Positions 3,921-59,945 of a stretch of DNA of 64,000 nucleotides are shown piece by piece. Source of the stretch: Chaetoceros tenuissimus (lineage: Eukaryota; Bacillariophyta; Thalassiosirophyceae; Chaetocerotales; Chaetocerotaceae); assembly GCA_021927905.1 (NCBI GenBank), contig BLLK01000049.1, forward strand, positions 301,073 through 365,072, given 5' to 3'. The first letter of the stretch is position 1, and each line of letters opens with the position of its first letter. The position numbers and the translations under genes were made by a program. Below the pieces are notes generated by a model that was not told where the DNA came from, did no database searches, and saw only the letters and a program-made list of their open reading frames with translations.

Positions 3921-5641
3921 GATGTTCTTGTTCTTCTTTCTGAATATAGATTCTTACTTGTAACTATGTAAATCAGTCAGCTTTGTTCTGTATTTCTCTA
4001 GTGATATAGTAATGCTTTCGCTATGATGAAGAAGTAAATTATGTGCAAAGATTTTGATGAGACGAAATAAAGGCAGATGAGAAGAGCAAAAGTGGGAAGG
4101 GTGGAATGTTGCGAAGCTTAATGAACGTTGAACATTGAAATTTTAGATTTTTCGAAGGTTCAGGATAAAGAATTTCTCCGAAAATATGTACATTTTAGGT
4201 AAATTTAGAGTAAAAGTCGCATCTCAGATATATTGATAAAGTTATTCCGCAAACTATGTCATCGCTTCGTTCGTGCGAAATGGAGAAGTCAAGTGAAAGG
4301 GAGAAGTGTGAATGCGAAGAGTATGAGGAATGTATTATGGTATTTTATGTATCCAAGTAGATGATTCTTCATTTTTTAAAGTAGAAAAATAGATGTACAA
4401 TGATTTGATCAAATTGGTAAGGATCGCGGATGAAATCGAATCGGTTTTGGCATTTGGCTAACTTGCGGCCGGCAACAAGGAATATCTATGCATTTTCGTT
4501 GAACACCCAGCCATAAGAAGCGAGTTTACTGCAAGTTTACACCATCCATCATTACAAAAGCGATCGACCTCGGCAGATTGAGATACAACTGGAAGCGGAC
4601 AATCATAATGTAAAAGAGGGGTTTTGAAGATTCAAAACAAGCAATATTCTCTCATAAAAAAAACTAATTACTACACTCACAAGCAAGCAAATCCAATGAT
4701 GACACTTTTTAGTCATGATTCAAGAAGGTACTGTAACTAAAATGTTAAAGCTAGATACTGAAGATATCCCATCATACTGATGAGTATTAAAATAAAATAT
4801 TACCATCGTTGTGAATTTCATTTTATCATGAGCAACTAAAAATAGGAAAAAAGTGGAAGAGTCAGCAAGGCAGCTAGCTAGCAACATGTTTGATTGTTTG
4901 ACACATTGTAGTAATTCAATTATTTTCTTTTGATTATATTTATGTATTTATTTTTATAAAGGAGATGATCAGGAGATGATACATAGCGCATGAAACATGA
5001 AATTTTACATACCATAGATTGTTCCAAAAATCTCAAAAGTATCTGCTAGTTCACACATAACGCACTTTTAACAGTTTTCAGAAAATCAATTACGCACTTC
5101 AATGTAGGATGACAAATGGAATGACACTCGAATAGCCTGATTGTAAGTTAGCTGTCTTACACAAGGACTTGACACCCTTAAGTCTTACTTGTATTTTAAT
5201 TGGCTCTCCTTGCAATAATAAACTTTATCCTTGAGAAGCTTACGTACTTGAAGACGATTCTTATGTGGCATAGTTCTCAGGACGGAGATGCATCTTCCCG
5301 ACTTTTTGTGGCTGTGATTTCTTTCCTATGATAACAATACTACTCAGTGCATCCAACACCAGCCAACACCGTGGTACTGTAGCTCCTCTTGGACTTATTG
5401 AATAACACAGTAAAGAACACTTCTTCTTCTTTACTTCAGCTTTGAAAATCTTTTATCAAAAGACTGAATCTAGAGTAGAATATAGCTAAAGATAGCCCGA
5501 GAACTCCTTCACACATAAAAGACTCACTACAACACAAGAAAAGGCCTCTTCAAGAACATATTGAATAGCAACACCATTATTTGAGACAAACTATCACTTA
5601 CATTACACTTGTATATATATATATTATTCAAAACACACAGT
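3921..5641. other. Intergenic, no gene seen
   Basis: About 1.7 kb of AT-rich sequence between divergent genes. It should contain both promoters. I see no convincing coding frame, RNA gene or repeat. Confidence 0.6.
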
Positions 5642-7147
5642 ATGTCGATTCCTGAACCAAAAGCGGGATACATGTGGATTCCCTATTCCACCGACATGAC
5701 GTTATGGCAAACCATTGCTTCGTCGCAAATCACAACCTCGTCCATGTCCATAATAGCATCTCTAGCAATCATCACATCCATTATAAAAACAAACTCACTC
5801 AAGACACCCTATGCTCGACTCATATTCTCACTATCGATAGCGGACGTGCTACATTCCGTGCCATTCATGCTAGGGCCTTTTATACCGCCCAAAACATTTC
5901 ATCCCGCTGAATGGGCCATTGGAAATTATACAAGCTGTAGAGTATTTGGAATCATGGGACAGATTGGTGCCATTTTGAGTATATTACACTATACCCTACT
6001 CTCATTCTATTACGTGTGTAAAATTGCACACAAATTGTCCGATCAACAGTTTGAAGTCCGTTACGAGCGGAAACTCCGTTTATTGATTTATGTATTTCTA
6101 GTGGTCTATGTACCCATTTCACTATCGATTACATGGGGTGGACCTGATCGCAATGGATTCTATTGTACCATGACCAACGTCATGAAGGCCGATTGTAATG
6201 AGGATCTGGGTGCTTGTCAATGGGATGTGAGGCGTATCAAATCTGCCACGAGGTTGGCGCTCTTTTATGGTTGTCTAGTCTGTGCCGTCTTTTTGACAAC
6301 CCTTTTTTGTATGGGGTTGATTATTTATCATGCCATTATGCGTGATCGGGTCTATCGACAACTTCAACCTTCGAACTTGACGACAAGAAACACAAACAGT
6401 AATACGCAAGTCAGCAATGAACGAACGAGTCAAGCTTCTTCCGTAACAGCACACAGTATCATGGCCAAGAATCTACGCATTCTCTATCTCCGTCAAACCT
6501 TTTTGCAAGGTTTTCTATTCTGCTTCAGTTTTATATTTTGTTACATTCCATTTCTGATTTATATTCTAATTATATTCCGGGATAATACAGCTACCGTGTC
6601 TCAAGCGCATTTATTCGCCATCTCAACCTTTCAACCACTATCGGGTATCCTAAATATATTGATTTATACCCGACCCGCCATTGTACATTTAAGAAGATTG
6701 TTTCCAGATTATACATGGATCAAAGCTTTTGTCACTGTGTTAAAGAGTGGTGGAGAGGTACCGCATGGATTACGAAGTAGTGCTTTACAAAACAATACCG
6801 GTGAGAATAATCCATCGGTGGTGATTCAATCCATTCCTTATGGCGTAATTAATCCCTCCATGGAAAATTCTTCCAATTTGAATTCCGTCAATGCGGAGAA
6901 TTTGGGAAGTATGTTTTCGAGGACCGAAGGTGATGAATGTTATCGTAGTCAGCAGAAATGGTCGTATGTACGAGAAAGTGGTGCTGCCATGTTGTTTAGT
7001 ATTAACGAAGCTGATTTCTTTTCATATGCAAGTGAAGAAAAGTTTGATGATGATCATTTGAGTTATGATGATGTGATTGATGAAGATACCGGTGATACCA
7101 CTAATGTATCCCGAGCTAGTCAGGGAAATGGAAATGGAAATCATTAA
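5642..7147 (+). CDS. 7TM GPCR-like receptor
   Basis: A 501-residue seven-helix protein of the rhodopsin-like fold, probably a plasma-membrane receptor with unknown ligand. Helices lie near residues 25-48, 58-80, 97-123, 146-164, 203-229, 295-318 and 328-350. Cys99 before helix 3 and Cys175 in the second outer loop could form the usual disulfide. Helix 2 carries LSIADVLHS, like the class A LxxAD motif; helix 7 ends LNILIYTRP, in the place of NPxxY; no DRY motif follows helix 3. A Ser/Thr/Asn-rich third inner loop and a long acidic tail flank the last helices. I chose the ATG giving MSIPEPKAGY; an in-frame TTG 33 bases upstream is less likely. Two paralogues lie in the window (9029 and 45699), sharing the IYTRP end and a following VVLGSGG/VLKSGG motif or similar. 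Confidence 0.8.
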   Translation: MSIPEPKAGYMWIPYSTDMTLWQTIASSQITTSSMSIIASLAIITSIIKTNSLKTPYARLIFSLSIADVLHSVPFMLGPFIPPKTFHPAEWAIGNYTSCRVFGIMGQIGAILSILHYTLLSFYYVCKIAHKLSDQQFEVRYERKLRLLIYVFLVVYVPISLSITWGGPDRNGFYCTMTNVMKADCNEDLGACQWDVRRIKSATRLALFYGCLVCAVFLTTLFCMGLIIYHAIMRDRVYRQLQPSNLTTRNTNSNTQVSNERTSQASSVTAHSIMAKNLRILYLRQTFLQGFLFCFSFIFCYIPFLIYILIIFRDNTATVSQAHLFAISTFQPLSGILNILIYTRPAIVHLRRLFPDYTWIKAFVTVLKSGGEVPHGLRSSALQNNTGENNPSVVIQSIPYGVINPSMENSSNLNSVNAENLGSMFSRTEGDECYRSQQKWSYVRESGAAMLFSINEADFFSYASEEKFDDDHLSYDDVIDEDTGDTTNVSRASQGNGNGNH

Positions 7148-9028: not shown

Positions 9029-9386
9029 ATGAATAAATCAATTCTAGCAGCCAACATTGTAAGAATGCTAATGGCATCAATATCCCTAACAGCATCATCT
9101 ACAATCGTACACTCGATACGACACTCCACAAAGGGATTGCAATCACCCTCCTATTCACGAATCATATTTGGACTTTCCATAGGAGACATTATACAATCAT
9201 CTTCTATAATAATCAATCCATTTGTCATTCCCAAGAAAGCTGTTGATTCAAGTATGGCGATTGGAAATACTATATCTTGTAATCTTGGAGGCTACTGTAT
9301 TTTTCTAGGGATTGCAATTACAATTTTCTATTTATTATTTTTAATGTATTTCTTTTTCAAGAGGGTTGTTAGAAATGTTGCTTCGA

Positions 9387-9783
9387 ATAGGGGGAAGGGT
9401 TAGCTCAGTTGGTAGAGCAGTCATCTTCATGGTGAAAGGTTGTGGGTTCAGGTCCCACCCACTCCCCTTGTTCAAGCCTGGACATGCTTGAACAACCTGC
9501 AGTGTGCACGTATGTGTTTGTACGTACGTACATGCTGCAACCAACAAGATTTCTTAAAATCTATTCTGTCCCCCTCCTTGTCCCAGGAGGGTGCGCACAA
9601 CAAAATTTGAGACATATGAAGAGGCGAGGTGGTTTTCACAATACGGGAAGTTGGCTTTCCCCTAGCCACAGAGAAAAAAAAAGAAAAACACTATCAATTG
9701 TCATCCACCTTCGGGCCGATGTAATGAAATTGATGCTATCCAATAATATAGTGATTAATATCAGTAAAGATTTCCAATTTAAT
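9387..9783 (+). mobile_element. tRNA-headed SINE-like retroposon insertion
   Basis: A 397-bp insert with a tRNA-like head at its left end, a tRNA-unrelated body, an internal A-rich tract (about 9672-9690) and an AT-rich right end. It is bounded by exact 18-bp direct repeats, TTAGAAATGTTGCTTCGA. A hairpin (9468-9495, TTGTTCAAGC paired with GCTTGAACAA) follows the head. A tRNA-derived head with an internal Pol III promoter plus a long target-site duplication is the usual signature of a SINE moved by LINE machinery. The right end is not a clean poly(A), so the partner LINE tail is unknown. I noticed no second copy in this window. Confidence 0.85.
9391..9467 (+). tRNA. tRNA-like head of the SINE, probably not a working tRNA
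   Basis: The 77 bases have a perfect A-box (TAGCTCAGTTGG, 9401-9412), a near-perfect B-box (GGTTCAGGTCC, 9445-9455), a five-pair T stem (GTGGG/CCCAC) and an acceptor that pairs at GGGGA/TCCCC but then mismatches. The anticodon stem TCATC/GGTGA closes a loop of only five bases, TTCAT, so the anticodon cannot be assigned with confidence. This decay fits a SINE promoter head better than a functional tRNA gene. Confidence 0.65.
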
Positions 9784-10721
9784 TTAGAAATGTTGCTTCG
9801 ATAAAGTTTGCTAAAAGGGAGGAAAAATATTTACATTTTGTAGTTTGGTTATTGGCGTTTGCGGTTCCGACTTTGCCTCTTATAAAAAGAGAATTCAATC
9901 CGGCGAAACTTGAGGGGGCGGGATGTATGCTCAATTCCTTTCCTCATGGTTGTGGTGGAGATGTGAATAGTGAAGATTATGTAGAGTGTACACGGGGAAA
10001 AGATTATAAACAGACTAGTATGATTTTTGGAGGAATCATTGGTGTGATTATTTTCATCTTATTGGGAAGCATCACTTGGCATGTTTACTCGATTGAAAAG
10101 ACTCTTGTTTCTTCTGGAGCAGTACAGGAAAAGGAACAATCGGAAGAACTACAAAGTAACACCACACCCAAAACCAATGAAGATTTTCAAGAAGATCATG
10201 ATGGCGCAGCAAACAAGGAAACGACACCCAAGAAAAGAAAATCATTGACTCGCAATGCCATTCAACAATCTTTACTCTACATTATAGCATTCATCATCAC
10301 ATACGCGGCACCATTTATATCCGTCTCAAGGGTAAAAGTTATGGATTCACACATTGGTATATTTATATTGTGGTTGAATTCGATGATATTTCCTATATTT
10401 GGAATATTCTTGATTTTAATTTATACCAGGCCCAAAGTACAGATATTGCAACAGAAATTTCCAAAAGCTTCTTGGTGGCTTTGTTTTACGGTTGTTTTGG
10501 GGTCTGGTGGGGATGTTCCACCTGCTCATGAGCTGGAACCTTCGGGTTTGCCAATCATGTCGGGAGAAGATTTGGGAATGGGGTCTCATCATGCACTAAG
10601 TATGTCGGGTGTAGATGATGAGGATGTTTCGTATGAGGATATGAAGAGTTCCATGATTTCGCTATGTCAGGATGATGCTTGGAGTCATGTGAGTAGCAGT
10701 GGTGGCTTTTCTGACGAGTAG

Positions 10722-50187: not shown

Positions 50188-53100
50188 TCAACTCTTCTCT
50201 CTACTGTCTTCCTCTTCGTCCTCTTGGCCACATACTGCCTTTGCTATCCTCCCAAACAACTCATCTCGACGCAAATCACGCTTACTTGTTATCCGTGCTC
50301 TGCATATCGGGCATTCCTTTCCGCATTTTGCAATTGCATCTTCTATGCATACATAGCAAAAGCGATGGCAGCATTCCGGAACTATGCATGGATCTTTCAT
50401 AGGATTGAAACAAATTGGACATTGAAGGTCTTCTTGCAAATCTTTCGCAAATGCTTGCATTTCTTGTAGTTGTTTGTTCATTGCCAATTGCTGTTTGAGT
50501 CTTTCAATTTCGTTGTTTTTCGCGTCTATGATTGAGTCCTTTTCCTTTACTATCTTATCCATTTTCTTCTTATATTCATCGTCAATTCTACCAGATGCAG
50601 GTCCACAATCGATAGAGTCTATTTTCAATGCAGCAAACTGTTTGTACTTTTTATCTTGTATCAAAGGCTTCGCCTGAAATACAGTTTCCATAAGTGCAAT
50701 CTCAAAATGATGCAATCCTTTTGATGCTGTATTCTTGAGCTCGTCATGGCGATCTTCGTCTGTACATTTCTTAGTACCTTTGTTGAACCATGCCTCATCA
50801 TAGGCTCCAATATTGTATTGTCTATTGTAGCTGTTAAGGAATCTCTGTAAATCACTATATAGTCTTTCAGAATTGACATCCAAAGAGCAGTCTAAGTAGC
50901 CATCTTCTAGCTTCAACTTGAATATTCTTTGCAAACGAACCCACTTCGTCCAATTAATGAAAGTTGTCTGCATGCAACGAAATTTGTTGTAAATCTCCAA
51001 GTTAAGACCATCATTGTCGAATGTAGGGTCACAACAAGATAATTGGAAATGATTTGAAAAACGAGTGACATACCACCAAGGAGGTATCCCATCGCACCTT
51101 AATTCTTCTGGTAGCTTATCGTGATCCTGGTATTTGATGAAAAGAATGAGAGCTGAGAAGTAGTTCAGGTATCGCATTGCTCTTGTTCTCCATATGTTCT
51201 TTGATCTGAGTTCAGATGGTGCTTGAGGGTATGCAAATACTTTCAATATTGTAAACATGAAGTTCCACATTTTGTCTTCCGACGCACAACAATTGGTGCT
51301 AATATCATAGTTCTTGATGAAGTCTACTGATATGGGATATAGTAAAGCTTGTGGTATGACAATCTTGCTTGGAAATCCTTTTAGTTGTAATTTTTCTTCT
51401 TCCCTGGATATATTTTTGGCTCGTTTCTCTTTGGTGCTCTTCACATTATTATCATCTTTACAAGCTAAGCTCCGTTTCGAAACTTTAGTGATGTTATTCA
51501 AATCATTGCTGTCATCACTATCTATGCTTTGTGTCGTTATTCCTTCAATCAAATTACGATCGTCAGTACTACTTGATCTGCCTTGCTTTGTACTTGCATT
51601 AGTACTCTTTGAATCTACATGCTTCTTGGCACCCGAAAGTAGCAGATGTTTGATAGACGCTGCACCATTGAATCTATTTTTGACATCATTATCTGTTCTT
51701 CCATTCATACACTTGGCAATCTCGGCCCAACTATTTCCTTTTTCTTTTTGTAACTTCACCAGCAACAAGTCTTCTTCTTTTGTCCATGCATTTTTATTAA
51801 TGTTTGGATCCAAATGATTACACCATCTATCTCGACACTGAGGGGCTGTCTTTCCTTCGAACTCTTTTGCAATTAAAGTCCACTTCTTTCCATGTATCTT
51901 GATTAATGTAACCAACTTTGCATCCTTTTCAGGACTCCATCTCTTACTGCTTATTGGACCTTTTCTATTCACACTGATTTTCATATTATTTGGCGGTATA
52001 TGTTCCGACCACCGTTCTTCACATTCTGCAGCTGATCTTCCTTCCATCTCGTTAGATATTACAGTCCAATTTAGTTCGAAACCATATTTTTCAACAAGTT
52101 CGCGAAGCTTTGTATCCTCATGTAGCTTCCATGGAATGAATGTTGTTGTGAATTGAGAATTCCATCGATATTGACATTGTTCACTTGTACGATTTGGGAC
52201 TTCTTCTGCAATCCTTTTCCAGTTGCTTCTACCTGTGTTTGTCCTTCCATGCTTTTTAACTGATGCAAGAAGAGCTTTGTCTTCTTCCGCGGTCCACGTG
52301 GTCCAATGCTTCACTTTCAAGCCGACATGTTCCTCTTCTTCGGTAATCCATCTCTTTCTTTTTAATGATTCCGATTTCTTGTTTGGAGTATGGTTGACTT
52401 TGTTATTCCCTGTCTTCTCAGCTGCTTTATGTGACACTCTCTTTTTACAGTCGTCGTCTTCATCATATTTCAATGGTTCTCTCATATTAACATCCTCTGC
52501 TATGTAATTTGGGCTAGCTCTCTTCGGAGTTTCAGACCTAATTTGATTCTTATTCTTTTCACTGGCTGTTCTTGCAGACTGTGTATTGTCTTCTCTTGGT
52601 GTATTAATCAATGTAGCAGGTTTGAATGTCATTGATTTATGATCTTCTTCATTACGTCTGGGAGTTCTTCTCTTCCCAAGCGAGTATGGCTTGTCAACTG
52701 GTCCTACCCATCCATATTTTTTGTGTGCAAACTCTTTTATATCATCTTCTGTTTCAAAGTAATGTACATTTCTAGTAAGAGTACTCTTCTTGAAACCTAT
52801 GAATTCTTTCATGTATCGAGTGGTGCTAACAGCTGAAGGGTACTGCAATTGATTAACAAATTCAAGTACAGAGTACATAACTTGCCAATCAGAATTCTTG
52901 TCAGGGAAATCTATCTGTGGACCGGTCCAACCATAAATTTTGTGTACAGCTTTTATAGCTGCTTCCTCCGTCACATAATAGTCTACATTTTCAATCCAAG
53001 TCTTTTTTACATACTCTAGACCATTTTCTTCATATTCAAGGCCACCAGGAATGTAGTAAGTAGAAATAAAACCTCCTTGACCAGGAACTACATTCCAACC

Positions 53101-54486
53101 AAAATGATTTACAAGAATTTCCAAGGCATTAGACCATGGCTCTAACTTTTCCTCTCTGCTAAACTTCCTCTTTTTGGAAGAGCGTTTTTCCTTCTTTGAC
53201 GAAGAACCGGTCACTTTTGATGGCACAATATCCTTAGCATCTGCAGTAGTGACTACTTCTTTCTTTGCATTCTCATCTTTTTGTCGTTTCGAAGTGGTAG
53301 ATATTACAGTAGCTCTATTCAAAGAATCACTTTTTCTACTAGCTAATCGATCCCTACGATCCACTTTTGCATTTCTGACAGGTGGTCGCTTGAGTTTCTC
53401 GAATTGATATTTGGAAAGTCGAGTAGTTTGTCCGGATGATAGAGAGTCCCTAGTATCATTTTTCTCTATCGAGACAACTTGCTTTCGCTTGAAAGAAGCC
53501 GAATTGAATCTATTTTTGACATCATTTTCTGTTCTTCCCTTCATATATTTGGCAATCTCTACCCATTTATTTCCTTTCATTTTCTGCAACTTTTCAAGCA
53601 ACAAATCTTCTCTATCAGTCCATTCACCTTTCTTGATATTAGGAGCTAAGTGGTTAAGCCATCTCTCTCGGCACTGTTTGCCTGCCCGTTTCACGTTGGA
53701 TTGTTTCATTAATACTTTTGCTATAATTGTCCACTCATGATGACCATGTATCTTCACCAATTTCATCAACTTTGCATCATCTTCAAGAGACCAACGCGTA
53801 AAATGCCCACTCTGAGCAGTCTTTCTGTTTTTACTTGGAGGTTGCTTATGGTCAATCTCGCGCCAACGTTCCTGACATTGTCTAGCCGATCTTCCTTTCA
53901 TCTCTTTAGATATTACGGTCCATTTTCGTTTGCAACCATGTTTTTCAACAAGTTCGCGAAGCTTCGAATCTTCTAACCTTTTCCATGGATTGGGCGATAT
54001 TTGTTTCAATTTTGTCATCCATCTATGGTAACATTGATTGGGTGTTGCACCTTGGACTTCAGTAGCAATCTCTTCCCAGTATCCATAACCATACTTGTTG
54101 ACAGAATTTCTAAGCGCTTCATCATCCTGGCTTGTCCACTTCTTGTATTTCCCTCGTGACTTTTTTGTTTCATGTATTGTAGTTGCTTCGAAAACTTCTG
54201 TCCCACAATCTTCTTCTTCTTCTTCCTCTGCTATGTCCATTTCTTCTGCCTCTGATAGATCAATATCTTCTTCCTCTGATAAATAACTTGCATCTTCTTC
54301 GTTACCATCTTCAAAATCAGAATCTGAATATTCCTCGTTAAACATGCCTTCCGATCCATTCAGACGTTTACGTAGACGCATGTTGAATCTTTGCCTCTTT
54401 CTAGGTAAAGATTCTTTCTCGACTTCAACTTCGCTTTCTTCTCCAAGTGATACTTCACTTTCATCGTCTTCTTGGTATTGAAACAT
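50188..54486 (-). CDS. Myb-repeat protein with C-terminal RING finger (eight Myb repeats)
   Basis: A 1432-residue protein starting MFQYQEDDES, a start shared with its neighbours. An acidic region precedes four Myb/SANT repeats (about 116-160, 167-211, 230-282, 288-333). Then come two similar domains (about 449-521 and 531-593), each ending KxYGW(T/V)GP, of a kind I recall from stramenopile proteins but cannot name. A second block of four Myb repeats follows (729-778, 785-831, 849-893, 900-943). After it lie an unnamed conserved domain (ISVDFIKNY..., CDGIPPWWYVTRFSNHFQL), a coiled coil, and a RING finger (about 1355-1393: CPICFNPMKDPCIVPECCHRFC, then CPICR). The likely role is a DNA-binding E3 ubiquitin ligase in the nucleus. 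First of five tandem paralogues. Confidence 0.85.
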   Translation of the reverse strand: MFQYQEDDESEVSLGEESEVEVEKESLPRKRQRFNMRLRKRLNGSEGMFNEEYSDSDFEDGNEEDASYLSEEEDIDLSEAEEMDIAEEEEEEDCGTEVFEATTIHETKKSRGKYKKWTSQDDEALRNSVNKYGYGYWEEIATEVQGATPNQCYHRWMTKLKQISPNPWKRLEDSKLRELVEKHGCKRKWTVISKEMKGRSARQCQERWREIDHKQPPSKNRKTAQSGHFTRWSLEDDAKLMKLVKIHGHHEWTIIAKVLMKQSNVKRAGKQCRERWLNHLAPNIKKGEWTDREDLLLEKLQKMKGNKWVEIAKYMKGRTENDVKNRFNSASFKRKQVVSIEKNDTRDSLSSGQTTRLSKYQFEKLKRPPVRNAKVDRRDRLASRKSDSLNRATVISTTSKRQKDENAKKEVVTTADAKDIVPSKVTGSSSKKEKRSSKKRKFSREEKLEPWSNALEILVNHFGWNVVPGQGGFISTYYIPGGLEYEENGLEYVKKTWIENVDYYVTEEAAIKAVHKIYGWTGPQIDFPDKNSDWQVMYSVLEFVNQLQYPSAVSTTRYMKEFIGFKKSTLTRNVHYFETEDDIKEFAHKKYGWVGPVDKPYSLGKRRTPRRNEEDHKSMTFKPATLINTPREDNTQSARTASEKNKNQIRSETPKRASPNYIAEDVNMREPLKYDEDDDCKKRVSHKAAEKTGNNKVNHTPNKKSESLKRKRWITEEEEHVGLKVKHWTTWTAEEDKALLASVKKHGRTNTGRSNWKRIAEEVPNRTSEQCQYRWNSQFTTTFIPWKLHEDTKLRELVEKYGFELNWTVISNEMEGRSAAECEERWSEHIPPNNMKISVNRKGPISSKRWSPEKDAKLVTLIKIHGKKWTLIAKEFEGKTAPQCRDRWCNHLDPNINKNAWTKEEDLLLVKLQKEKGNSWAEIAKCMNGRTDNDVKNRFNGAASIKHLLLSGAKKHVDSKSTNASTKQGRSSSTDDRNLIEGITTQSIDSDDSNDLNNITKVSKRSLACKDDNNVKSTKEKRAKNISREEEKLQLKGFPSKIVIPQALLYPISVDFIKNYDISTNCCASEDKMWNFMFTILKVFAYPQAPSELRSKNIWRTRAMRYLNYFSALILFIKYQDHDKLPEELRCDGIPPWWYVTRFSNHFQLSCCDPTFDNDGLNLEIYNKFRCMQTTFINWTKWVRLQRIFKLKLEDGYLDCSLDVNSERLYSDLQRFLNSYNRQYNIGAYDEAWFNKGTKKCTDEDRHDELKNTASKGLHHFEIALMETVFQAKPLIQDKKYKQFAALKIDSIDCGPASGRIDDEYKKKMDKIVKEKDSIIDAKNNEIERLKQQLAMNKQLQEMQAFAKDLQEDLQCPICFNPMKDPCIVPECCHRFCYVCIEDAIAKCGKECPICRARITSKRDLRRDELFGRIAKAVCGQEDEEEDSREKS

Positions 54487-56882: not shown

Positions 56883-59800
56883 TTAGTTCTTCTGACTGTC
56901 TTCTTCTTCGTCGTCCTCTTGGTCACATACTACCTCTGCTATCCTCCCAAACAACTCATCTCGCCGTAAACCACGCTTGCTCGTTATCCTTGCTCTGCAG
57001 ATCGGACATTCCTTTCCGCATTTGGCAATAGCATCTTCGATGCATGTAAAACAGAAACGATGGCAGCATTCAGGAACTATGCATGGGTCTTTCATGGGAT
57101 TGAAACAAATTGGACATTGAAGGTCTTCTTGCAAATCTTTCGAAAAAGTTTCCATTTCTTGTAATTTTTTATTATGCAGTTTGAGTCTTTCAATTTCGAT
57201 GTTTTGTGCATCCATGATGTGGTCCTTTTTCTTGTTTTTTGACACTTGGTGTTTGAGTCTTTCAATTTCCCTTTTTTGTGTATGTATGATTGAAGAGTAC
57301 TTTCCCTCGTTCTTCAATATTTGTTGTTGAACATTTTCAATCTCCTCCAGTTGTTTTCTGAGTCTTTCAATCTCCTTACTTTGTGCGTCTACAGTTGAGT
57401 CCATTTCCGTAATATCATCTGCCTTCTTCATTTCTACCTTCTTGGTCTCAACTTCATTATGCATGATATCTGTTGCAGGTCCAAAATTGACAGAGTCTAT
57501 CTCCAAAGTAGCAAACAATTTGAATTCTTTACCTTGTATCAAAGGCTTCGCCTGAAATACTGTCTCCATAAGTGCTATTTCGAAATGATGCAATCCCCTA
57601 GATGCTGTTTTCTTGAGTTCATCATAGCGCTTTTCGTCTATACATTTCTTCGTATCTTTGTTGAACCATGTCTCGTCATAGGCTCCATAACGGTATTGCG
57701 AGTTATAAGTATCCAGGAATTTTTGCAAATCACCATAGTAACTTTTCTTGTTCTTATTGATCACGCATTTGGTGAATAGCGGTTTCAAATACCCATCTTC
57801 TGATCTGTAATTATCACTACAAACTGAATGAGCACTATGTGCATCACACCAGCTGTAATTTATCCATTGTCTGAAGCTTAAGTTCATTTCACGATATTCA
57901 CTGCGAATGATTTTGCCAAAATGATCATCGTTGTTATCATTGGCATTCCTGGTGGGAATTGATGGAGATGGCAATTCAAAGCGATTGAAGAAACGGACTA
58001 CATACCACCAAGGAGGTATGCCATCATGTCTTAATTCTTTTGGTAGTTCATCATGATCCTGATACTTGATCAAGAGGATGAGAGCCGAGAGATAGTTTAG
58101 ATAGTGTTTCGTTTTGTTTCTCCACCTTTCTATAGATGTAAGTTCAGCGGGTGCTTGAGGGTAAACAAATACTTTCAATATTGAAAACATGAAGTCCAAC
58201 ATCTTCGCCTCGAGTTCATCATAGCTACTTGTGTACTTCTTTATAAAATCTATCGATAAAGGTCTTTGAAGCGTTTCTGGCATGGCAATCCTTCTTTCAA
58301 ACCCTTTCAGCTGTCGATCAGCTCTCTTTAATTTGCGATTAAATCGATTTCTAACCTCCTGAGCCGTTCTACCCACTTCATTCGCAATCACTGTCCATTT
58401 ATTTCCTCTTTCCTTATGAAGTTTGATGATACTCAAATCTTCTTCAATTGACCAATTTTGTTGTGGCGCACTGACTCTCAGCGGCTCACTAACTTTTAAA
58501 GAGTCATTCCATCGATGGTAGCATTGCTGCTCTGTCCGACAAGGCATACCTTTTGCAATAGTTTTCCAATCTCTTTCTTTATTCTTTTCAACAGCTGAAC
58601 GAAGCGCTTCATCTTCCTCCACACTCCAATTCTGCTGAGGACTTTTCTTTGTATTACTATCTTGTGTCTTATTTCTTGAAGCAACTTCAGTACTTTCTTC
58701 TTCGTTTTCTTCTAGCTGCAATACTATATCTTCATTTTCAGGTTGCATATATCTTCTGAATTTCAAAGTGCTATGCCACCGTTGGGTACATTGGTTCATT
58801 GTGCGACTAGGTACTTCTTTTACAATGGTTGCCCAATCTTTTTCCCAACCTTTTTCTTTATTCTTTTTGACAGCTAAGCGAAGTGCTTCATCTTCTTCCA
58901 CAGTCCATTTCCTTCCATGTGGTCTCTTTGTATTGCTACCTTTTGTTTTGTTTGTTTTAGGAATTGGAATATCATCCTTTTCGTTAATGCCCTCGATATT
59001 AGATTCTATATCTCTTGATTTTACGCTCAGTCTTTGCTCTTTATCTGATGCATTTTGTACTGATCTTGTTTTTGATCCTTTGCGATGTCTACGTAATTTA
59101 TTGCCCACATCAATCTGTGCTACGAGATCCTTGGTAGTTGCTACACCTACTCTCTTTGGTCTTTTTTTGGTGCCATTATCATCAGTGCCATCGTGACCAG
59201 CTAAGCATCGTTTCGACCTTGTATTGGAATTATTTGAATCACCACCGTCGTTACTAGCTGTGCCTCGCGTTAATTTTCCTTCTGTCAAATTGCAATCAGC
59301 AGTAGTAACTACTGTAACTCGTCTTGATCTTGTACTGATATTATTCGAGTCGACTCGTCTCAGCTTACTTACTCTCATAACGTTTACTGAAGAACTCCTA
59401 TTCCTTCTCTTGACCGATTCTAATTTTTTAGGACGTTTTCTATTTACAATCTTTTTCTTCTCCTTTTTCTTTGGAGGTATATGCTCTAACCAACGTTGCT
59501 CACATTCTGTAGCTGATCTTCCTTCCATCTCTTTAGATATTATGGTCCATTGTAGTTCAGAATCATGTTTCTCAACAAGTTCGCGAAGCTTTCTGTCCTC
59601 ATACAGTTTCCATGGAATCATAAATTTTCTATTCCATCGACAGTGACACTGTTCAATTGTACGATTTGGGACGTCTTCTGCAATCCTTTTCCATTTGTTT
59701 CTACCCGTCCTAGTCTCCCCATGCTTTTCGACAGATTTACGAAGTGCTTCGTCTTCTTCCGCGGTCCATTTCTTGAATTTCGCCATTTGATAATTCCATC

Positions 59801-59945
59801 TATTGTTACATTGTACCCCATTACGATTTGGGACTTCTTCTGCAATCCTTTCCCAGTTTCCCCTTGTCTCCCCATATTTTTTAACAGACGCACGAAGTGC
59901 TTCGTCTTCTTCCGCAGTCCACCAATAGTGATGTTTTACTTCCAT
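56883..59945 (-). CDS. Myb-repeat protein with C-terminal RING finger (six Myb repeats)
   Basis: A 1020-residue protein starting MEVKHHYWWTAEEDEALRAS. Six Myb/SANT repeats lie near residues 7-54, 56-109, 112-157, 345-395, 435-480 and 490-535, each with the spaced Trp pattern (WTAEEDEALR...W..IA...RT..QC..RW). The shared unnamed domain follows (LKGFERRIAMPETLQRPLSI, then DGIPPWWYVVRFFNRFELP), then LHHFEIALMETVFQAKPLIQ, a coiled coil and a RING (CPICFNPMKDPCIVPECCHR, then CPICR). Just upstream, at 59967-59953, the ancestral family start is still visible as MFQY followed by TAA where relatives have CAA. So translation now begins at a new ATG in another frame, directly before the first Myb repeat. 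Proposed role as for 50188. Confidence 0.85.
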   Translation of the reverse strand: MEVKHHYWWTAEEDEALRASVKKYGETRGNWERIAEEVPNRNGVQCNNRWNYQMAKFKKWTAEEDEALRKSVEKHGETRTGRNKWKRIAEDVPNRTIEQCHCRWNRKFMIPWKLYEDRKLRELVEKHDSELQWTIISKEMEGRSATECEQRWLEHIPPKKKEKKKIVNRKRPKKLESVKRRNRSSSVNVMRVSKLRRVDSNNISTRSRRVTVVTTADCNLTEGKLTRGTASNDGGDSNNSNTRSKRCLAGHDGTDDNGTKKRPKRVGVATTKDLVAQIDVGNKLRRHRKGSKTRSVQNASDKEQRLSVKSRDIESNIEGINEKDDIPIPKTNKTKGSNTKRPHGRKWTVEEDEALRLAVKKNKEKGWEKDWATIVKEVPSRTMNQCTQRWHSTLKFRRYMQPENEDIVLQLEENEEESTEVASRNKTQDSNTKKSPQQNWSVEEDEALRSAVEKNKERDWKTIAKGMPCRTEQQCYHRWNDSLKVSEPLRVSAPQQNWSIEEDLSIIKLHKERGNKWTVIANEVGRTAQEVRNRFNRKLKRADRQLKGFERRIAMPETLQRPLSIDFIKKYTSSYDELEAKMLDFMFSILKVFVYPQAPAELTSIERWRNKTKHYLNYLSALILLIKYQDHDELPKELRHDGIPPWWYVVRFFNRFELPSPSIPTRNANDNNDDHFGKIIRSEYREMNLSFRQWINYSWCDAHSAHSVCSDNYRSEDGYLKPLFTKCVINKNKKSYYGDLQKFLDTYNSQYRYGAYDETWFNKDTKKCIDEKRYDELKKTASRGLHHFEIALMETVFQAKPLIQGKEFKLFATLEIDSVNFGPATDIMHNEVETKKVEMKKADDITEMDSTVDAQSKEIERLRKQLEEIENVQQQILKNEGKYSSIIHTQKREIERLKHQVSKNKKKDHIMDAQNIEIERLKLHNKKLQEMETFSKDLQEDLQCPICFNPMKDPCIVPECCHRFCFTCIEDAIAKCGKECPICRARITSKRGLRRDELFGRIAEVVCDQEDDEEEDSQKN

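Follow-up and report, generated by a model that had tools for sequence, protein, structure and literature searches.

A tRNA-derived SINE, very probably mobilised by a resident LINE, splits a receptor gene in the diatom Chaetoceros tenuissimus

The window analysed here, a 64-kb stretch of the Chaetoceros tenuissimus genome, contains a 7TM receptor gene divided into two parts by a short interspersed element (SINE) (Table 1). Removal of 415 bases from the 9029-10721 interval leaves a single clean frame of 1278 bases (425 codons and a stop), whereas the frame stops after 124 codons when the SINE is present. Both halves of the joined frame match the paralogous ORF located upstream. Disruption of a receptor gene and similarity of its halves to this paralogue had been claimed in a preliminary description of the locus, and both claims hold. 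Taken by itself, neither half of the broken gene has a significant Pfam match. Of the homologues, P0019 and P0034 feature PF00001 (rhodopsin-like 7TM), and UniRef gives P0020 the name 'G-protein coupled receptors'. The 289-residue second half of the receptor matches 144 rows in the genome, a figure that includes the query itself and counts some genes in several rows. The diatom genome thus holds a large 7TM receptor family, with likely pseudogenes among its members. Internal stops are found in several of the 144 rows.

Table 1. Features of the split receptor gene and of the inserted element, in window coordinates.
Feature	Position	Strand	Evidence
Paralogous 7TM receptor ORF, first ATG at 5642	5609-7147	+	26% identity to both halves, E 2e-32
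5' part of the split 7TM receptor gene, ATG at 9029, TSD copy 1 included	9029-9386	+	Reading frame
5' target-site duplication (TSD), TTAGAAATGTTGCTTCGA	9369-9386	+	Exact repeat
SINE, 397 bp (tRNA-like head, body and LINE-derived tail)	9387-9783	+	Exact TSDs at both ends; other genome copies at 79-98%
tRNA-like head	9393-9467	+	ARAGORN; Rfam RF00005; cloverleaf is the minimum-energy fold
A box, TAGCTCAGTTG	9401-9411	+	0 mismatches to the consensus TRGYNNARNNG
B box, GGTTCAGGTCC	9445-9455	+	2/11 mismatches to the consensus GGTTCGANTCC
SINE body, common to both tail types	9468-9697	+	Genome search; also in L013 with another tail
LINE-derived 3' tail	9698-9773	+	79-87% identity to 23 tail-only genome places
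Tail hairpin CATC-CA-CC-TTCG-GG-CC-GATG, candidate LINE reverse transcriptase recognition element	9702-9721	+	Fold; covariation; model R1 match at 9700-9723
3' part of the split 7TM receptor gene, TSD copy 2 included	9784-10721	+	Reading frame; homologues
3' target-site duplication, TTAGAAATGTTGCTTCGA again	9784-9801	+	Exact repeat

On the + strand of the window, the 18-bp repeat flanking the element has only two exact occurrences, 415 bases apart, and corresponds to the perfect target duplication that had been described. The tRNA-like head is detected by the Rfam tRNA model (RF00005), which matches positions 9394-9466 with 31.6 bits (gathering score 29); the z-score of the cloverleaf fold is only -1.18. 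ARAGORN labels the head as selenocysteine, with anticodon TCA, a label that should not be read literally. The A box is exact, and the B box, judged by its sequence, is degenerate. Among 20 host tRNA loci compared, out of 63 listed (63 of 2031 candidates were scored), the closest to the head is a tRNA-Ala (70%), and no direct parent of the head was found in this set. A TTTT run is located within the SINE in all five elements checked (at 9633 in the window copy) and could stop a Pol III transcript early. The open reading frame list also includes a 120-codon frame starting from GTG (9442-9804), which overlaps the SINE.

A genome search using the 397-bp element returned 33 rows, 23 of which contain the tail only. 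Nine SINE loci were identified, six of which feature head, body and tail. These are the window copy, near-complete copies on C33, C21 (in which the head start is missing) and C42, and copies on C58 and C28; the remaining loci are two body fragments on C29 and a single head fragment on C65. When the body alone (9471-9690) was used as query, nine rows at eight genome places were found. Relative to the window SINE, substitutions number 3/387 in C33, 6/381 in C21, 16/365 in C42 and 24/370 in C58. The C28 element differs at 115/382 positions, and its tail is not homologous. TSDs flank five of the six elements featuring head, body and tail (18 bp in the window, 17 in C33, 13 in C21, 18 in C42 and 15 in C28). 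The C58 copy (L012), which is split into two rows by an insert of ~290 bp, has only a 6-nt end match, read by eye; a 13-bp repeat found nearby was not counted as a TSD, as it is not located at the element ends. SINE length ranges from 368 to 397 bp in five elements. In C33 and C42, joining the sequences on either side of the insertion likewise gives an open frame, of 179 and 233 codons, respectively, from stop to stop.

Since the element recurs in the genome, and other copies are flanked by their own, different TSDs, chance is excluded for the window SINE. On the basis of its head with Pol III boxes, dispersed copies, TSDs and short length, the 9387-9783 segment can be classified as a tRNA-derived SINE, as the preliminary description had proposed in a reading that called for copies elsewhere in the genome. 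The recent activity that it put forward is also reasonable, given the 3/387 substitutions relative to the nearest copy and a gene that is otherwise open, although these data provide no absolute date.

A few loci have a more complex structure. The two C29 body fragments, L014 (C29:160307) and L015 (C29:72217), are identical over the 500 bases compared and have opposite orientations. The identity includes neighbouring sequences; the contig thus holds an inverted duplication, at least 500 bases long, and the two fragments probably represent one SINE insertion that was duplicated. In L016 (3001-3901, in the SINE orientation), 54 bp of the SINE head (94% identity) are separated by ~670 bp from a degenerate LINE 3' end downstream; this may be either a broken SINE or an independent fusion of a tRNA head to a LINE. 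The ~290-bp insert in the C58 SINE (L012:3212-3501) features terminal inverted repeats recognised by eye, about CCGTCACTCTGAAAATTCC, and has the appearance of a nested MITE.

The last ~75 bp of the SINE match the 3' ends of LINEs at 79-87%, and a LINE with the same 3' tail, the existence of which had been anticipated, was thus found. Against six LINE loci the SINE tail scores 92.4 bits, as compared with a maximum of 31.0 in 200 single-base shuffles. Twenty of the 23 places carrying this tail (tail A) were examined, and these correspond to the 3' ends of one LINE group, which are full, truncated or reduced to the tail alone. By sequence comparison, the tail of the SINE is common to a LINE of the same genome. 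In L018, L022 and L027, a LINE of ~7.87 kb is found between TSDs. The L022 and L027 elements, which feature stop-to-stop ORFs of 673 and 1873 codons, are 99.9% identical across 7881 bases, and this near-identity suggests recent LINE activity. The L018 element, in which the second ORF is disrupted, shows 92% identity. TSDs of 14-21 bp flank 16 of 25 LINE copies, and 13 of these 16 are cut at the 5' end, L031 to about 64 bp. The remaining copies either feature repeats of 10-11 bp, which is chance level (three copies), or have no TSD (five copies), and one (L029), which has a longer duplication, was set aside. The LINE copies terminate in TTA repeats, which vary in number, with no poly(A). In contrast, SINEs with tail A terminate in CCAATTT. 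Because the termini differ, and tail identity does not exceed 87%, the present LINE copies are not the exact source of the SINE tail.

The ORF2 product of the LINE is labelled as hypothetical protein at NCBI. Pfam revealed no reverse transcriptase (RT) match in ORF2, and a PDB search with ORF2 alone gave no match; PDB searches including a profile of ORF2 relatives similarly revealed no RT. The profile, obtained from 14 relatives, weakly matches endonuclease and RNase H structures (E about 0.003), and the endonuclease signal is also present in five of the 14 members. The RT motifs DxxxCxD, GxGQG, FxDD and KC are invariant in alignments of 14 and 16 proteins, and are conserved at 90% or more in a 70-row alignment. 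ORF2 is predicted to combine endonuclease and RNase H domains, as indicated by the profile, with an RT, as indicated by the invariant motifs. The RT region matches 53 rows in the genome, with identities ranging from 100 down to 21%. A search starting from the distant relative P0016 retrieved 646 proteins, 120 of which are listed (P0041-P0159, unnamed endonuclease/RT proteins). Five proteins of this wider family were scanned for RVT_1. P0127 has a match at 5.2e-5 (23.5 bits, below the Pfam cut-off of 29.6), along with an RNase_H match at 5.4e-7; P0080 and P0016 have matches at 0.0022 and 0.013, also below the cut-off; P0144 and P0012 have no match. The RVT_1 domain precomputed for P0144 was not reproduced by our scan. 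One scan of IMG/VR for ORF2 relatives yielded 39 pattern matches, none of which was confirmed. The AlphaFold model of the RT region, obtained from a 16-row alignment, has a pLDDT of 45.3 and is unusable, and no fold search was built on it. As the LINE enzyme has no Pfam RT match and is labelled as a hypothetical protein, retroelement counts in such genomes may be low.

The C28 SINE (L013) features the same head and body as the window SINE (79% identity over positions 3-284) and a different tail. The latter matches five other genome places, three of which (L044, L045 and L047) carry an ORF2 upstream. The ORF2 proteins of this lineage B are 30-40% identical to those of lineage A (for instance, 37% over 441 residues in L047). 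A third lineage, C (P0002; tails L069-L071), is 38% identical to lineage A over 1394 residues. Tail matches in the genome are 12 for lineage B, nine of which were analysed, and 19 for lineage C, six of which were analysed. That one head and body occur with the tails of two LINE lineages suggests that the SINE followed both of them, exchanging its tail. In other SINE superfamilies, too, bodies joined to tails of different LINEs are known. In L013, the hairpin loop (CTCTTCTGCGGG) is that of the lineage C end L076, and the downstream part of the tail is B-like. No SINE with a C tail was seen among the six of 19 lineage C places analysed. A third SINE type was sought at six places carrying B or C tails (L075-L080) and rejected, as ~350 bases read upstream of the tails gave no tRNA call, and matches to the SINE head or body were 21 bases or shorter. 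Upstream sequences match ORF2 well in L077-L079, at E 0.89 in L080, and not at all in L075-L076. Taken together, these results indicate that the six places are truncated LINE ends or tail fragments.

A hairpin is found in the tails of both SINE types and of the three LINE lineages. A, B and C tails have in common an inner stem with its loop, which a CA/CC internal loop separates from an outer stem of four pairs in A and six in B and C. When four tails were folded as single sequences, none stood out (z from -1.72 to +0.52). When 16 distinct tails of types A and B were aligned automatically, 96.4% of the cells were paired, as opposed to 21.6-41.3% when the partner is slid, and six cells are changed on both sides, a number not attained in any of 500 shuffles. 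The number of double-change pairs (2; 75/500 shuffles) and of pair types (5; 464/500 shuffles) is not unusual. Since the automatic alignment of the short hairpins placed L013 and L069 out of register, hairpins were registered by hand, according to a pattern in which the CA and C[CT] letters were set in advance, as were the forms that the 3' arm could take. Of 39 sequences entered, 38 (18 distinct) were fitted, and the old SINE fragment L014 was not. Sequences lacking the 5' arm (L031 and L046), the degenerate L016 and the distant LINE ends L072-L074, in which the motif is not matched, were not entered.

In the hand-registered set, which includes lineage C, 105 of 108 cells from the 18 distinct hairpins are paired, and 15 double changes are observed; neither value was reached in 2000 shuffles. 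The cells counted belong to two pairs of the inner stem and to the outer stem without its two outermost slots, hence to its four inner pairs. The outermost slots are paired in B and C and unpaired in A (with T facing T in 8 of 18 hairpins). Among the outer pairs, the second is T-A, C-G or T-G and the third either A-T or C-G; the fourth differs between lineages, being C-G in A, T-A in B and A-T in C. Double changes lie between lineages, and hence correspond to few independent evolutionary events. A model (R1) built from nine A and B hairpins detects L013, which had been held out, at E 0.0022, and the held-out L048 only at E 0.074; no match was obtained at E up to 10 in lineage C (L069-L071), and none in the distant LINE ends L072-L074 or in L016. 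Altogether, SINE and LINE appear to feature a conserved, covarying 3' RNA structure, with the qualification that independent events are few and that R1 misses lineage C. This hairpin is a candidate element probably recognised by the LINE enzyme.

We consider it very probable that a tRNA-derived SINE of C. tenuissimus has been mobilised in trans by a resident LINE, splitting a 425-codon receptor; the SINE appears to have exchanged its tail between two LINE lineages. The SINE would be transcribed by RNA polymerase III from the A and B boxes. The 3' end of the transcript would consist of the ~75-nt tail related to the LINE 3' end, which, as suggested by the comparative evidence, can fold into the hairpin. 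The LINE RT would bind the hairpin, the LINE endonuclease would nick the target, and a SINE copy would be inserted by target-primed reverse transcription. The outcome is the 18-bp duplication, along with a receptor frame that is stopped after codon 124. TSDs left by SINEs (13-18 bp) and LINEs (14-21 bp) overlap in size, which argues against mobilisation by some other LINE, with tail similarity and hairpin as functionless relics. The tail identity of at most 87% and the different termini of SINE and LINE would fit such relics. In contrast, the maintenance of the hairpin, with paired changes, in two SINE types and three LINE lineages would not, and we regard mobilisation by another LINE as improbable. 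Even less credible, and in fact close to negligible, is that the segment is a one-off tRNA pseudogene or a template-switching chimera with no SINE family behind it. The family is small, and in L016 only 54 bp of the head precede other sequence, but head and body are common to six elements, five of which feature independent TSDs, so that the existing copies already contradict this hypothesis.

Alternative interpretations also concern the fate of the receptor gene. The segment could be, or could have become, a spliced intron, the receptor being still expressed once the SINE is removed. There are 32 GT-AG pairs, with donors at 9250-9783 and acceptors up to 10000, that leave the receptor frame open (for instance, 9346-9787, which removes 442 nt), but none of these combinations removes exactly 415 bases. 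Moreover, the insertion point is crossed with no gap by 13 of 15 aligned homologues (those of at least 300 residues among P0019-P0040), which suggests that no ancestral intron was present; the other two start at or downstream of the site. P0018, which is 74% identical to the receptor, also starts downstream of the site and hence is not informative on the insertion point. As retroposition would be expected to leave dispersed copies and an exact TSD, we consider splicing very unlikely. A neutral presence/absence polymorphism, in which the other allele of the diploid is intact and the gene is not lost, has in our opinion nearly an even chance. This possibility is compatible with the insertion of a SINE and concerns only its consequence. 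The strain is heterozygous at 1.56% and is represented by one haploid assembly of 41 Mb (PMC8613185), and the insertion looks young, as judged from the 3/387 substitutions relative to the nearest copy. On the other hand, a second copy of the receptor 3' flank with identity above 78% is not found in the assembly, although a collapsed assembly would hide one.

The SINE-LINE pair inferred in C. tenuissimus resembles the UnaSINE1/UnaL2 pair of the eel, in which a tRNA-headed SINE and a LINE similarly feature a common 3' tail hairpin. UnaL2 belongs to the L2 clade, a LINE group other than that of the C. tenuissimus partner. The eel pair is supported by experiments, cited in a review (PMC3747384), whereas evidence for the C. 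tenuissimus pair is comparative only. According to the review, pairs of the stringent type are held to work by Pol III transcription of the SINE and recognition of the shared 3' hairpin by the LINE enzyme, followed by target-primed insertion. The same source describes another algal pair, SINEX-3_CR/L1-1_CR of Chlamydomonas, which has a common 3' end of ~80 nt. The Chlamydomonas pair belongs to the L1 clade and features poly(A) ends; in contrast, the C. tenuissimus LINE terminates in TTA repeats, has no poly(A), and encodes an enzyme not recognised by Pfam. In the 3' hairpin of plant L1-clade LINEs and SINEs (Ohshima; PMC3747384), compensatory changes in the stem are likewise accompanied by some constant unpaired letters. 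As far as the review reports, these are located in the loop and in the 3' flank of the stem, and not in an internal loop as the CA/CC letters of C. tenuissimus. SINE/LINE pairs with common hairpins are thus already known, and the C. tenuissimus pair adds a new SINE and an unplaced LINE partner. More tentatively, and with somewhat less than half of our belief, we propose that the partner belongs to an undescribed, deeply divergent non-LTR group, common in environmental sequences and missed by domain annotation, whose RNA would be recognised through a 3' hairpin in which the CA/CC internal loop stays constant, and that one SINE persisted through tail exchange between LINE lineages whose proteins are only ~37% identical.

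SINEs account for 0.02%, and LINEs for 0.64%, of the C. tenuissimus genome (PMC8613185). Thirteen putative SINEs have been reported in P. tricornutum (PMC5859163), SINEs have also been reported in Cyclotella cryptica (PMC7466962), and are mentioned in Skeletonema (PMC8147415). The statement that such elements are little described in diatoms must therefore be amended, as the same class of elements had been reported in bulk, and the C. tenuissimus count possibly includes the family described here. In the accessible parts of these reports, however, SINEs are counted or mentioned with no indication of head, body, TSD or LINE partner, all of which are resolved for the window SINE. In the open-access literature searched, which lacks most subscription papers, no study was seen that dissects a diatom SINE together with its LINE. 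Resolution of a diatom SINE into its parts, together with a LINE partner, a candidate recognition hairpin and a broken gene, makes a SINE/LINE partnership testable in a stramenopile. In the same genome, a viral fragment flanked by a 7-base duplication and featuring a poly(A)-like end has been proposed to have been inserted by host LINEs (PMC8613185). As the LINEs analysed here leave TSDs of 14-21 bp and TTA ends, they would not be, by signature, the obvious agent of that insertion.

Elsewhere in the window, two neighbouring long ORFs of 1432 and 1020 codons map to the - strand (50188-54486 and 56883-59945, respectively). They feature many Myb repeats, in eight stretches in the former and six in the latter, and a RING finger near the C-terminus.
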